Shown: piece after piece, positions 52,137 through 55,724 of the stretch
Position numbering within the stretch: the first letter of the stretch is position 1
Layout: each line of letters opens with the position of its first letter
Assembly (NCBI GenBank): GCA_040743155.1
Contig: JBFLJU010000001.1
Location: 2,477,144 to 2,541,143 of the forward strand
Direction of reading: 5' to 3'
From: Cycloclasticus sp.
GTDB lineage: Bacteria; Pseudomonadota; Gammaproteobacteria; Methylococcales; Cycloclasticaceae
Length of the DNA: 64,000 nucleotides
The notes under the pieces: model-generated
Told to the model about the DNA's origin: nothing
Seen by the model: only the letters and a program-made list of their open reading frames with translations
Database searches by the model: none
Translations under genes and position numbers: made by a program

Positions 52137-54866
52137 ATGACTGAAAAAACGCTGGTGCTAGTTGATGGCTCTTCTTACTTGTTTCGTGCGTACCACGCAT
52201 TGCCGCTGCTGACCAATTCAAAAGGCGAATACACCAATGCTATTTTGGGTGTCACGAATATGCTGAAAAAGCTGGTGGCCACTTATCCAGAGGCTTATTT
52301 AGGCGTGATATTCGACGCGCCGGGCAAGACATTTCGTAACGATATGTACCCAGAATACAAGGCGAATAGAGCGTCCATGCCAGAAGAGTTGCGAGAGCAA
52401 ATAAAGCCTTTGCATGAATTGATAAAAGCGATGGGCTTGCCGCTTGTGATGGAGTCTGGTGTTGAGGCGGATGACGTGATTGGCACGCTCGCCAAGCAAG
52501 CTGAAGCAGCAGGACTTAAGGTGGTTATTTCTACCGGCGATAAAGACATCGCGCAAATGGTGACAGATAATATTTCATTGATTAATACGATGAATAATCA
52601 GTGGCTAGATATTGAGGGTGTAAAAGAAAAATTTGGCGTGCTTCCTGAGCAAATCATTGATTATTTAGCGTTAATGGGCGATACCTCTGACAATATTCCG
52701 GGCGTGCCAAAGGTGGGGCCTAAAACGGCAGCAAAATGGTTGAATAAATACGGCTCACTGGATGAATTAATAGCCTGTGCTGACGAGGTGAAGGGCAAGG
52801 TTGGTGAAAGCCTGCGCGAGCATCTTGATGCTATTCCCTTGTCAAAGCAGTTGGTGACGATTAAATGCGATGTGCCATTAAATGAAGCGCCAACTGACTT
52901 GCTTCGAGTCGACGTTAATGCAGAGGTTTTGCGCGACATGGTGAGTCATTTTGAGTTTAATTCGTGGTTGAAGCAACTGGGCGCAGGAACTGTCACAGCC
53001 ACGGCGGCTAACACGATGCCGCAAGAAGCAGATGACGACCCGCTGCCGCCAGCAGTGGAATTAAAGGTCGATACGGTTCTTGATGAGGCGAGTTTTAACG
53101 GTTGGTTAGAGAAGTTGTCTAACGCACCTTTGTTTGCCTTTGATACGGAAACGACCGACTTGGATTACACCAAAGCACTGATTGTGGGTGTTTCCTTTGC
53201 CGTTGAAGCGGGGCACGCGGCATACGTGCCGTTAGCGCATACCTATCCGGGCGCGCCAGAACAGCTCTCTAGGCAATGGGTTTTAGATCAATTGAAACCG
53301 CTGCTGGAATCTGAAACCACGCATAAAGTCGGTCAAAATCTTAAATATGATGCGAACGTGCTGGCAAATCACGATATTCGCTTGGCTGGGATTCAGCACG
53401 ATACGATGCTTCAGTCATACGTTTTAAATAGCACGGCAACGCGACACAATATGGATGCGCTAGCAGAGAAATATTTAGGCCAGCAGACCATTCATTACGA
53501 AGACGTGGCGGGTAAAGGTGCAAAGCAAATTTGCTTTGATCAAGTGCCGGTTGAAATAGCAGCTCCCTATGCCGCTGAAGATGCAGACATTACATTACGT
53601 TTGCACCAGCAGCTTTTCTCTAAGTTAGAAAAAACTGAGGCGCTAGAAAAGGTTTATCAGACGATAGAAATGCCGTTAGTGCCGGTGTTGGCAAGAATGG
53701 AGCAAAGCGGTGTGTTGGTGGATGAGCAGATGTTGCTTCAGCAAAGTGCTGAGTTAGCATCGAAGACCAAAATACTCGAAACGCAGGCGCACGATGTTGC
53801 TGGTCAACCGTTTAATTTGGGTTCGCCAAAGCAAATACAAGAAATTTTGTACGACAAATTAGGCTTGCCGGTTCTAAAAAAGACACCGAAAGGTCAGCCA
53901 TCAACCGCTGAAAGTGTATTGCAGGATTTGGCGTTGGACTTTCCATTGCCGCGGTTGATTCTTGAGCACCGTAGTCTCAGTAAGTTACGCTCGACCTATA
54001 CCGACAAGTTGCCCAAGCAAATTAACCCGGTAACGGGTCGTGTACATACGTCGTATCACCAAGCCGTTGCCGCGACGGGCCGCTTGTCTTCGTCTGATCC
54101 AAACTTGCAAAATATTCCTGTGCGCAGTGAGGAGGGACGACGAATTCGCCAAGCCTTTATCGCTGATCAGGGTTATACCGTATTGGCGGCCGATTATTCG
54201 CAAATTGAATTGCGAATTATGGCGCATTTGTCACAAGATGCCGGGCTGTTGCAAGCTTTTAAAGAAGGCTTGGATGTTCACAAGGCCACCGCATCGGAAG
54301 TATTTGGCGTGCCGCTCGATCAAGTCGAAACGCACCAGCGCCGCTCTGCCAAGGCGATCAACTTTGGTTTGATCTATGGCATGTCGGCGTTCGGTTTGGC
54401 TAAGCAGCTAGATATTGACCGTGGTGCTGCACAGGGTTATATCAATTTATATTTTGATCGCTACCCAGGCGTAAAAAGCTATATGGATGAGACGAGGGAG
54501 TTGGCGCGTGAGCAAGGTTATGTTGAAACCTTATTTGGTCGGCGCTTATATTTACCCGACATTAATGCGAAAAATGGTCAACGTAGGCAATATGCTGAAA
54601 GAACGGCGATTAATGCGCCGATGCAAGGTACCGCGGCAGATATTATTAAATTAGCCATGTTGTTGGTTGATGATTGGTTGCAAGTGGATCAGCCGCCGGT
54701 ACGGATGGTGATGCAGGTGCACGATGAATTGGTGTTTGAAGTTGAAAACAGTTATTTGGAGCGGGCTAGCGATATTATTCGGCAAAAAATGAGCGAGGCG
54801 GCTGCGCTGGATGTGCCGCTAGTTGTCGACGTGGGTACTGGGAAGAACTGGGATGAGGCCCACTAG
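52137..54866 (+). CDS. polA: DNA polymerase I
   Basis: Three-domain repair and Okazaki-fragment enzyme of 909 residues. The 5'-nuclease is at about 1-290 (VDGSSYLFRAYHALP, EADDVIGTLA), and the proofreading exonuclease is at about 325-510 (FDTETTDLDY, KYDANVL, AAEDADIT). The polymerase is at about 515-909 (motif A DYSQIELRIMAHLS, motif B RRSAKAINFGLIYG, motif C QVHDELVFEVE). All catalytic residues are present, so proofreading should work. The start at 52137 lies downstream of the -10 box; an upstream frame is not used. The candidate small RNA follows. Confidence 0.98.
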   Translation: MTEKTLVLVDGSSYLFRAYHALPLLTNSKGEYTNAILGVTNMLKKLVATYPEAYLGVIFDAPGKTFRNDMYPEYKANRASMPEELREQIKPLHELIKAMGLPLVMESGVEADDVIGTLAKQAEAAGLKVVISTGDKDIAQMVTDNISLINTMNNQWLDIEGVKEKFGVLPEQIIDYLALMGDTSDNIPGVPKVGPKTAAKWLNKYGSLDELIACADEVKGKVGESLREHLDAIPLSKQLVTIKCDVPLNEAPTDLLRVDVNAEVLRDMVSHFEFNSWLKQLGAGTVTATAANTMPQEADDDPLPPAVELKVDTVLDEASFNGWLEKLSNAPLFAFDTETTDLDYTKALIVGVSFAVEAGHAAYVPLAHTYPGAPEQLSRQWVLDQLKPLLESETTHKVGQNLKYDANVLANHDIRLAGIQHDTMLQSYVLNSTATRHNMDALAEKYLGQQTIHYEDVAGKGAKQICFDQVPVEIAAPYAAEDADITLRLHQQLFSKLEKTEALEKVYQTIEMPLVPVLARMEQSGVLVDEQMLLQQSAELASKTKILETQAHDVAGQPFNLGSPKQIQEILYDKLGLPVLKKTPKGQPSTAESVLQDLALDFPLPRLILEHRSLSKLRSTYTDKLPKQINPVTGRVHTSYHQAVAATGRLSSSDPNLQNIPVRSEEGRRIRQAFIADQGYTVLAADYSQIELRIMAHLSQDAGLLQAFKEGLDVHKATASEVFGVPLDQVETHQRRSAKAINFGLIYGMSAFGLAKQLDIDRGAAQGYINLYFDRYPGVKSYMDETRELAREQGYVETLFGRRLYLPDINAKNGQRRQYAERTAINAPMQGTAADIIKLAMLLVDDWLQVDQPPVRMVMQVHDELVFEVENSYLERASDIIRQKMSEAAALDVPLVVDVGTGKNWDEAH

Positions 54867-54968
54867 ATAAAACATAGCGTTGGGAAAACAAGTGCTTTTA
54901 CGTGGTAGTAAAGTGGGTGGATAGAAATAAAGGTTTTGTTGAGCTAAAAGCAGTAAAAAATAAAAAGT

Positions 54969-54995
54969 GAACTTTTTGAGAAAGATTTAGTCAAA
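54969..54995 (+). promoter_or_regulatory. sigma-E/AlgU-type promoter before the small RNA
   Basis: GAACTT (54969-54974), a 16-base spacer and TCAAA (54991-54995). This is the consensus and spacing of extracytoplasmic-stress sigma factors (RpoE, AlgU). A start near 55001 would place the first base about six bases after the -10 box. Confidence 0.8.
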
Positions 54996-55000
54996 CAGCC

Positions 55001-55115
55001 GTATCTAGTTAGATATGCTTGCTCATATCTCCCCCTCCCCTTGAGCAAGTTCTTTCGGTTAGCTATAACCGAATTCTGAAGCCCTAGGCTGTTTTTGGCT
55101 CTAGGGCTTTTTTTT
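55001..55115 (+). ncRNA. candidate ErsA/Spot 42-position small RNA
   Basis: About 115 bases between polA and engB, the locus of Spot 42 in enterics and of ErsA in Pseudomonas, and ErsA is likewise sigma-E (AlgU) driven. It folds by eye into four stems. A small ATCTA/TAGAT hairpin comes first, then an 8-bp CTTGCTCA/TGAGCAAG stem (55018-55025, 55042-55049). The 16-base loop of the second stem contains CTCCCCCTCCCC, able to pair with Shine-Dalgarno sequences. A third stem is TTCGGTTA/TAACCGAA (55054-55061, 55066-55073), and a terminator ends it. No open frame of note is inside. Hfq use is inferred. Confidence 0.8.
55079..55115 (+). terminator. terminator of the small RNA
   Basis: Perfect 9-bp arms AAGCCCTAG (55079-55087) and CTAGGGCTT (55101-55109) with a 13-base loop, running into eight Ts (55108-55115). 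The stop codon of engB on the other strand (55101-55103) lies within the right arm. Confidence 0.93.
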
Positions 55116-55724
55116 GCTTATAATTTCTGCCACATTTAGGTGTTCATCTAACCAATTATGTATCTGCTCTATGCCTTCCTTTTTAAGAGAGGAAAATAGC
55201 TCCACTTGAACGTTGGCGGTCGAATCTTTAAGTAGTTTTTGAACAGCAAATAAGGTGTTTTTAGCGCCATTGCGATTGAGTTTGTCGGCTTTTGTTAGCG
55301 CCACAAAAACATCTAAATTTAAATGAGCGGCATAATCGATCATTTGTATATCGAATTCACCTAGCGAGCGACGAATATCGACCAGTAAAACCAGTCCATT
55401 GAGCGCCTTTCTTTTTTCCAAGTAACGTTCAAGCTCTTTTTGCCATTTTTGTTGAACGCTCGGTGGCACTTTAGCGTAGCCATAGCCGGGCAAATCCACT
55501 AAGCAGCGCTGCTCATCAAGTTTGAAATAAACAAGCTGTTGAGTTCTGCCGGGCGTTTTGCTGGTTCTAGCGAGGCTTTTTTGATTGGTCAGTGTGTTGA
55601 TGGCGCTTGACTTGCCCGCATTTGACCTACCGGCGAAGGCGACTTCGTATTCGATGCCTTCAGGGGTGGTTTTTAGATTGGGAGCATTAAGCAGGTATTC
55701 GGCGCGGTGATAAAGGGGGTTCAT
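55101..55724 (-). CDS. engB: ribosome-biogenesis GTP-binding protein EngB
   Basis: A 207-residue essential GTPase (YihA/YsxC) for assembly of the large ribosomal subunit and linked to division. G1 is GRSNAGKSSAINTLT near residue 32, the G2 region is KTPGRTQQLVYF, G3 DLPGYGYAK and G4 TKADKL. It faces polA and its end overlaps the terminator of the small RNA, so convergent interference is possible. It is divergent from the cytochrome genes. Confidence 0.97.
   Translation of the reverse strand: MNPLYHRAEYLLNAPNLKTTPEGIEYEVAFAGRSNAGKSSAINTLTNQKSLARTSKTPGRTQQLVYFKLDEQRCLVDLPGYGYAKVPPSVQQKWQKELERYLEKRKALNGLVLLVDIRRSLGEFDIQMIDYAAHLNLDVFVALTKADKLNRNGAKNTLFAVQKLLKDSTANVQVELFSSLKKEGIEQIHNWLDEHLNVAEIISKKKP

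Follow-up and report, generated by a model that had tools for sequence, protein, structure and literature searches.

The window analysed here is a stretch of 64,000 nucleotides from the genome of a Cycloclasticus sp. (GenBank assembly GCA_040743155.1, contig JBFLJU010000001.1, positions 2,477,144 to 2,541,143 of the forward strand), a genome of 2.56 Mb in a single contig that encodes an hfq gene. Among named genomes, the EngB proteins most similar to its own (L031-L040, 81-90% identity) come from Cycloclasticus MAGs, two of the ten records carrying other names. Between polA and the convergent engB gene, the window contains a compact unit with the layout expected of a small RNA (sRNA) driven by its own promoter. 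The features of this locus, in window coordinates, are as follows:

52137..54866, + strand: polA, DNA polymerase I, the upstream neighbour (NCBIfam NF004397, 1231.9 bits)
54969..54995, + strand: sigma-E-type promoter GAACTT-N16-TCAAA, with the -35 element GAACTT at 54969-54974, a spacer of 16 and the -10 element TCAAA at 54991-54995 (sequence and motif search; genus conservation)
55001..55115, + strand: predicted sRNA of ~115 nt, from the predicted start to the end of the T run (fold z -6.3, covariation)
55001..55016, + strand: stem-loop 1 (fold; the 14 genus sequences have 98.0% paired cells and both-side changes in 1 of 7 pairs)
55017..55050, + strand: stem-loop 2 with the C-rich loop AUAUCUCCCCCUCCCC, presumably where targets are paired (fold, loop count)
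55054..55073, + strand: stem-loop 3, with a tight loop lacking a C run (fold)
55078..55115, + strand: intrinsic terminator hairpin (stem 55078-55110) and a T run of eight T (55108-55115) (sequence, fold, genus covariation)
55101..55724, - strand: engB (yihA, ysxC), ribosome biogenesis GTPase, the convergent neighbour (NCBIfam TIGR03598, 231.3 bits)

The start is predicted near 55001 because of the positions of the -35 and -10 elements. Folding of 55001-55118 gave four hairpins with a minimum free energy of -44.2 kcal/mol, compared with -24.7 ± 3.1 kcal/mol in dinucleotide shuffles (n = 200), and none of the 200 shuffles was as stable as the native fold. On the opposite strand, the engB frame ends inside the terminator element, with its final 15 bases shared. 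An automatic scan of 54700-55400 called no terminator, perhaps because of a bulge in the stem. Sequence, fold and motif search bear out the anatomy that had first been proposed for this interval between polA and engB, namely a promoter, four stem-loops, a C-rich loop and a terminator.

By itself, the promoter motif does not exceed chance in the window (1 match versus 0.58 expected, with 45 of 100 shuffles reaching 1), and a looser sigma-E motif gave 49 matches genome-wide versus 85 in the backward control. Because the genome-wide motif is not enriched, motif counts were dropped as evidence, and the promoter case is carried by conservation. Six GAACTTT sites were hand-picked from the genome for a context check: one precedes rpoH, and visual inspection of the remaining five revealed nothing of note. 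The rpoH gene is a classic sigma-E target, and in this genome a sigma-E-type box with a spacer of 16 lies 72 bases before its start codon (L343:74-100, G000:C1:1923173-1923199). From the box in the window, its conservation and the same box ahead of rpoH, we infer sigma-E control of the unit.

The genus sample for the conservation analysis had 18 genomes (G000-G017); a strong engB match is present in 15, and 14 of these 15 have the unit at the polA-engB locus. Genome G003 (L040, L125) has polA and engB adjacent with a gap that lacks the unit and holds a different terminator-like hairpin. A search of the genus loci using the stem-loops only found GAACTT upstream of every match among those listed, and likewise at L011. 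Across the 14 distinct aligned genus sequences, whose rows were extracted with a pattern that requires GAACTT, TGAACTTT is invariant. In this alignment, 14 of 31 pairs changed on both sides while 96.8% of cells are paired, and pairing drops to 27-47% when the structure is slid by 1 to 3 columns. Four of five covariation measures lie above all 500 shuffles; for the fifth (further pair types) the shuffles are not exceeded, 190 of the 500 reaching the observed value. For 7 of the 8 pairs in stem-loop 3, both partners differ in one or more sequences of the genus, and hairpins 1 and 2 contain just one such pair each within the genus. For stem-loop 2, 100% of cells are paired in the genus, with both-side changes in 1 of 7 pairs there and in 4 of 6 in the order.

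Beyond the genus, the order sample comprised 43 genomes, 42 of them with engB, and the loci of all 42 were examined. A screen for a GAAC-type box together with a T run or a C-rich stretch passed on 26 loci, of which 21 also passed a stricter filter (GAACTTT, a C-rich stretch, a T run and a stable fold), giving units in 21 of the 42 engB-bearing genomes (10 in family f4, 8 in f6, 1 in f7 and 2 in f8). This screen requires the promoter, so units with another promoter would escape it. The order alignment contained 33 sequences, 14 from the genus and 19 others, with L137 and L139 of f8 omitted as too different. Here, both sides have changed in 20 of 25 pairs, 96.4% of cells are paired, and four of the five measures are matched by none of 500 shuffles, for a structure derived from the very alignment on which it was tested; the fifth measure, again further pair types, is reached by 261 of 500 shuffles and does not exceed them.

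A covariance model built from the genus only (R2) reached E values of 0.006 or better for 16 of the other 21 order units, with E 0.25 to 1.8 for the remaining five. R2 also matches elsewhere in the order loci, at L132 (E 0.005) and L162 (E 0.95). The weak match at L132:3075-3180 lies ~1 kb beyond engB and is possibly a displaced copy. At L144 and L146 (G022 and G036), the engB frame extends into the sRNA, with an overlap far larger than in the window.

An order-wide covariance model (R1), which starts at the transcript and contains no promoter, was used, with an E limit of 0.01 and the stricter filters of the scan, to search 369 evenly drawn genomes of the class. It matched 127 genomes, 3 of which belong to the model's own order, and 242 had no match; the window's genome itself scores 86 bits, its sequence being part of the R1 alignment. 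Sixty-seven matches outside the order were inspected, one per genome (27 listed and 40 hand-picked down the list). At 57 of these, polA or engB lies within ~1.5 kb, and at the other 10 neither gene was detected within that distance. Orientation mostly follows that in the window: of 49 engB genes, 47 run against the match, and of 42 polA genes, 39 run with it. The strict box GAACTT-N14-17-TC is found at most ~70 bases upstream of 36 of the 67 matches versus 5 of 2312 control windows of equal length from the same loci, and a loose sigma-E box upstream of 53 of 67 versus 95 of 2312, with 27 of the 67 matches already viewed before the promoter test was written. Since the promoter is not part of R1, this association is the strongest single piece of evidence. 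Together with conservation and covariation, these promoter statistics lend good support to the sequence-only reading in its claim of a sigma-E-controlled sRNA at the Spot 42/ErsA position, and the stems and loop, whose conservation across relatives it had named beforehand as a test, are indeed conserved.

Part of any covariance-model match consists of generic GC-rich hairpins and terminators. An engB survey independent of R1 covered 42 class genomes (40 in list order plus G221 and G330), with engB in 35; R1 matched 12 of the 30 loci listed, with an E of at most 4e-5 in 11 cases. A small search gave no R1 match for Acinetobacter (L206) or Neisseria (L208), and 7.5 bits only for Legionella (L210). 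L206, L207, L208 and L209 are chromosome-sized engB-locus records filed as plasmids in a plasmid collection. Ten class genomes carry two to four R1 matches each, and four matches lie within ~1 kb at both G230:C33:13149-13903 and G337:C8:6558-7495; the sRNA seems to be duplicated in tandem in some lineages.

R1 was also applied to 69 engB loci, 68 titled as Burkholderiales taxa and one as a proteobacterium. It matched 32 of them (30 at E 0.0062 or better), in all 32 cases on the strand opposite engB, and none of 30 control loci from the window's own genome. Matched loci include Herbaspirillum, Noviherbaspirillum and Oxalicibacterium; among 21 Massilia-titled loci there was no match. At gathering scores, Rfam gave no match in the window, and at a relaxed E it gave 11 weak ones, several of them driven by the terminator. 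The unit-carrying loci that Rfam names at gathering scores (7 of 40, as 2 of 20 plus 5 of 20) are all assigned to anti-hemB (RF02837, Burkholderia RNA 7, ncS04). The window scores 20.8 bits with this family, below its gathering score of 49.5, and RF02837 coincides with R1 or R2 at 7 loci, by polA or engB. Three of these 7 loci (L172, L188, L192) come from the class sample and show a sigma-E-like box, which is strict in L192 only. Part of PMC5688073 reports anti-hemB as a transcript detected in B. cenocepacia. By these model matches, membership of anti-hemB in a sigma-E sRNA family at polA-engB is well supported.

C-rich loops were counted as loops with a CCC run in minimum-energy folds. Their number is exactly one in 14 of 14 genus RNAs, three in 16 of 21 other order units, and three or more in 52 of 67 class matches. 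Because it has one C-rich loop where most relatives have three, the Cycloclasticus unit looks like a reduced form, in which pairing would be concentrated in the enlarged loop 2.

As to mechanism, envelope stress would free sigma-E (RpoE/AlgU type), and polymerase would then transcribe the sRNA from the polA-engB interval. The RNA would accumulate under envelope stress and act in trans, its C-rich loop, carried on a 9-bp stem, base-pairing to ribosome-binding sites rich in G (core GGGGAGG) so that translation of chosen mRNAs is blocked. The pairing of loop and ribosome site is proposed by analogy with sX13, for which the experiments described in parts of PMC3771888 indicate that C-rich loops repress mRNAs with G-rich motifs near their starts; transcription, sigma-E dependence and targets are predicted from the DNA. 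A search for GGGGAGG-N(3-12)-ATG found 11 sites versus 4 in the backward control, one of the 11 being the sRNA's own antisense, and the sole site with a convincing start (L299) precedes what appears by eye to be an FAD-type oxidoreductase. Duplex ranking of 61 window frames had no clear winner (best -19.8, median -7.2), and neither approach produced a convincing conserved target. Inspection of the hfq start likewise gave nothing.

Other readings of the locus have to be weighed against a trans-acting sRNA. Hairpin 1 contains an ATG (offset 16 of L001:1540-1657) that opens a nine-codon frame, as a short translated leader or a micropeptide gene would require. This scarcely credible reading was rejected because frame, length and start are not conserved across the 14 genus sequences, in which the changes preserve the stems instead. 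It is also very improbable that the unit is a cis-acting element, i.e., an antisense overlap or a convergent terminator that regulates or ends the engB mRNA. Such a role would account for the overlap with the final 15 bases of the engB frame and for the entry of that frame into the unit in two relatives (G022, G036), but the conserved promoter of its own, the three further hairpins and the conserved loop would all be superfluous for it. In addition, the engB strand has no T run directly after the terminator hairpin, and the sRNA match is kept in those 10 of 67 class matches with neither polA nor engB detected nearby.

Convergence is the alternative to which we give more weight, although we still consider it unlikely. 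A separate sRNA would have arisen at the ErsA/sX13/Spot 42 position in a permissive gap between two convergent genes, with C-rich loops evolving independently. That R1 does not match Spot 42, which in E. coli and Aeromonas records also lies by engB, that the window lies under every Rfam gathering score, and that sX13 genomes are missed in the R1 genome scan are all points in its favour. Set against them is a model from a single order that recovers this locus both across the class and among Burkholderiales, together with a promoter absent from the model, as well as the partial cross-detection between the sX13 and R1 models.

It is very probable that this interval codes for a conserved regulatory RNA under stress control. 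We judge it likely that this is a trans-acting sigma-E sRNA of an old polA-engB family, with anti-hemB and sX13 as named branches, perhaps ErsA as a further one, and many unnamed RNAs. Its relatives beside the same gene pair in many distantly related bacteria suggest that several small RNAs, each with a name of its own, belong as branches to one old family. A wider scenario, to which we give roughly even chances, is that ErsA, sX13, anti-hemB and the unnamed RNAs descend from a single sigma-E-driven sRNA already beside polA in the common ancestor of Gamma- and Betaproteobacteria, that Spot 42 is maybe a re-wired branch, and that Cycloclasticus was reduced to one pairing loop. In the literature searched, no paper mentioned both ErsA and sX13 and, judged mostly by titles, none announced such a unification.

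Compared with the known RNAs of this position, the unit resembles Spot 42 (RF00021) in locus, stem-loops and terminator, and Spot 42 lies by engB in the E. coli and Aeromonas records (L207, L209). Spot 42 in E. coli is under cAMP-CRP control, not sigma-E. The window reaches 15.5 bits with RF00021 (E 1.5) versus a gathering score of 80, R1 has no match at the Spot 42 loci, and there is no usable model match in either direction; RF00021 itself has no match in the window's genome and one weak match in 369 genomes. Membership in the Spot 42 family is excluded by this score and by the R1 non-match. The interpretation first given, which drew homology to Spot 42 and ErsA from position and control logic, stands apart from the Spot 42 family, whose inclusion in the wider family is unsupported. 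RNAs at the ErsA position are linked weakly, and homology no longer rests on position alone, because covariance models link the unit to anti-hemB and sX13.

ErsA of Pseudomonas aeruginosa (SPA0122) is described in part of PMC8395346 as being under AlgU control and in part of PMC7264166 as Hfq-dependent; a portion of PMC3349714 places SPA0122 by engB and describes it as a putative Spot42 whose context is conserved. ErsA and the window unit share the polA-engB position and a sigma-E/AlgU-type promoter, which for the window is a sequence feature only. PrrF, used as a Pseudomonas marker, was found in G221 and, below cut-off, in G330, and no such unit was found beside engB in either. The family of G221, with PrrF above cut-off, is presumed to be Pseudomonas-like and served as a stand-in for a named ErsA record. 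R1 matches at E 5 or better occur in 31 of its 35 genomes, mostly weak, and the four strongest are not at polA or engB. Of the 20 loci listed, 10 are next to polA or engB, with E values from 0.006 to 0.3; a loose sigma-E box is present within ~110 bases upstream in 10 of these 10, and a C-rich terminator loop, by eye, in 9 of 10. Unlike in the window unit, the second hairpin of these ErsA-position RNAs is not clean. Taken together, the model matches are suggestive only of homology between the window unit and ErsA.

The sX13 RNA of Xanthomonadaceae (RF02232) is, according to parts of PMC3771888, adjacent to polA and built of stem-loops with C-rich loops, as is the window unit; it has three C-rich loops whereas the window unit has one, and the same parts report it as Hfq-independent. 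The window scores 13.1 bits with RF02232, below the gathering score of 50. RF02232 matches 15 of 369 class genomes, 3 of them above cut-off, and six of its places coincide with R1 places (G081, G142, G196, G230, G293, G337), all six below cut-off at 30.6-48.3 bits. Conversely, R1 finds three sX13 loci in a 53-kb search (E 2.9e-4, 9.3e-4 and 1.5e-3), all beside polA; the genomes of these loci (G072, G224, G332) had no R1 match in the genome scan, and the strict sigma-E box is absent at the three loci by eye. A polA-side RNA, L202 (G424:C14:77811-77924), scores 49.5 bits with the sX13 model, just under cut-off, matches R1 at E 1.2e-4 and has a sigma-E-like box, which makes it a possible bridge between the families. 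On these matches, the placement of sX13 in the sigma-E sRNA family at polA-engB appears fairly well supported.

The sX13 paper asked, in the part of PMC3771888 concerned, whether the polA loci of other bacteria encode sRNAs that act alike. The first half of this question, sRNAs at other polA loci, is answered for one in three of the class genomes sampled, and the covariance model together with the shared promoter makes the second half, like action, testable. If the proposed family is real, the gap in Rfam, which names 7 of 40 unit-carrying loci, would be filled, sigma-E sRNA control would be extended to hydrocarbon degraders and their order, and sX13, anti-hemB and perhaps ErsA would become comparable as relatives.
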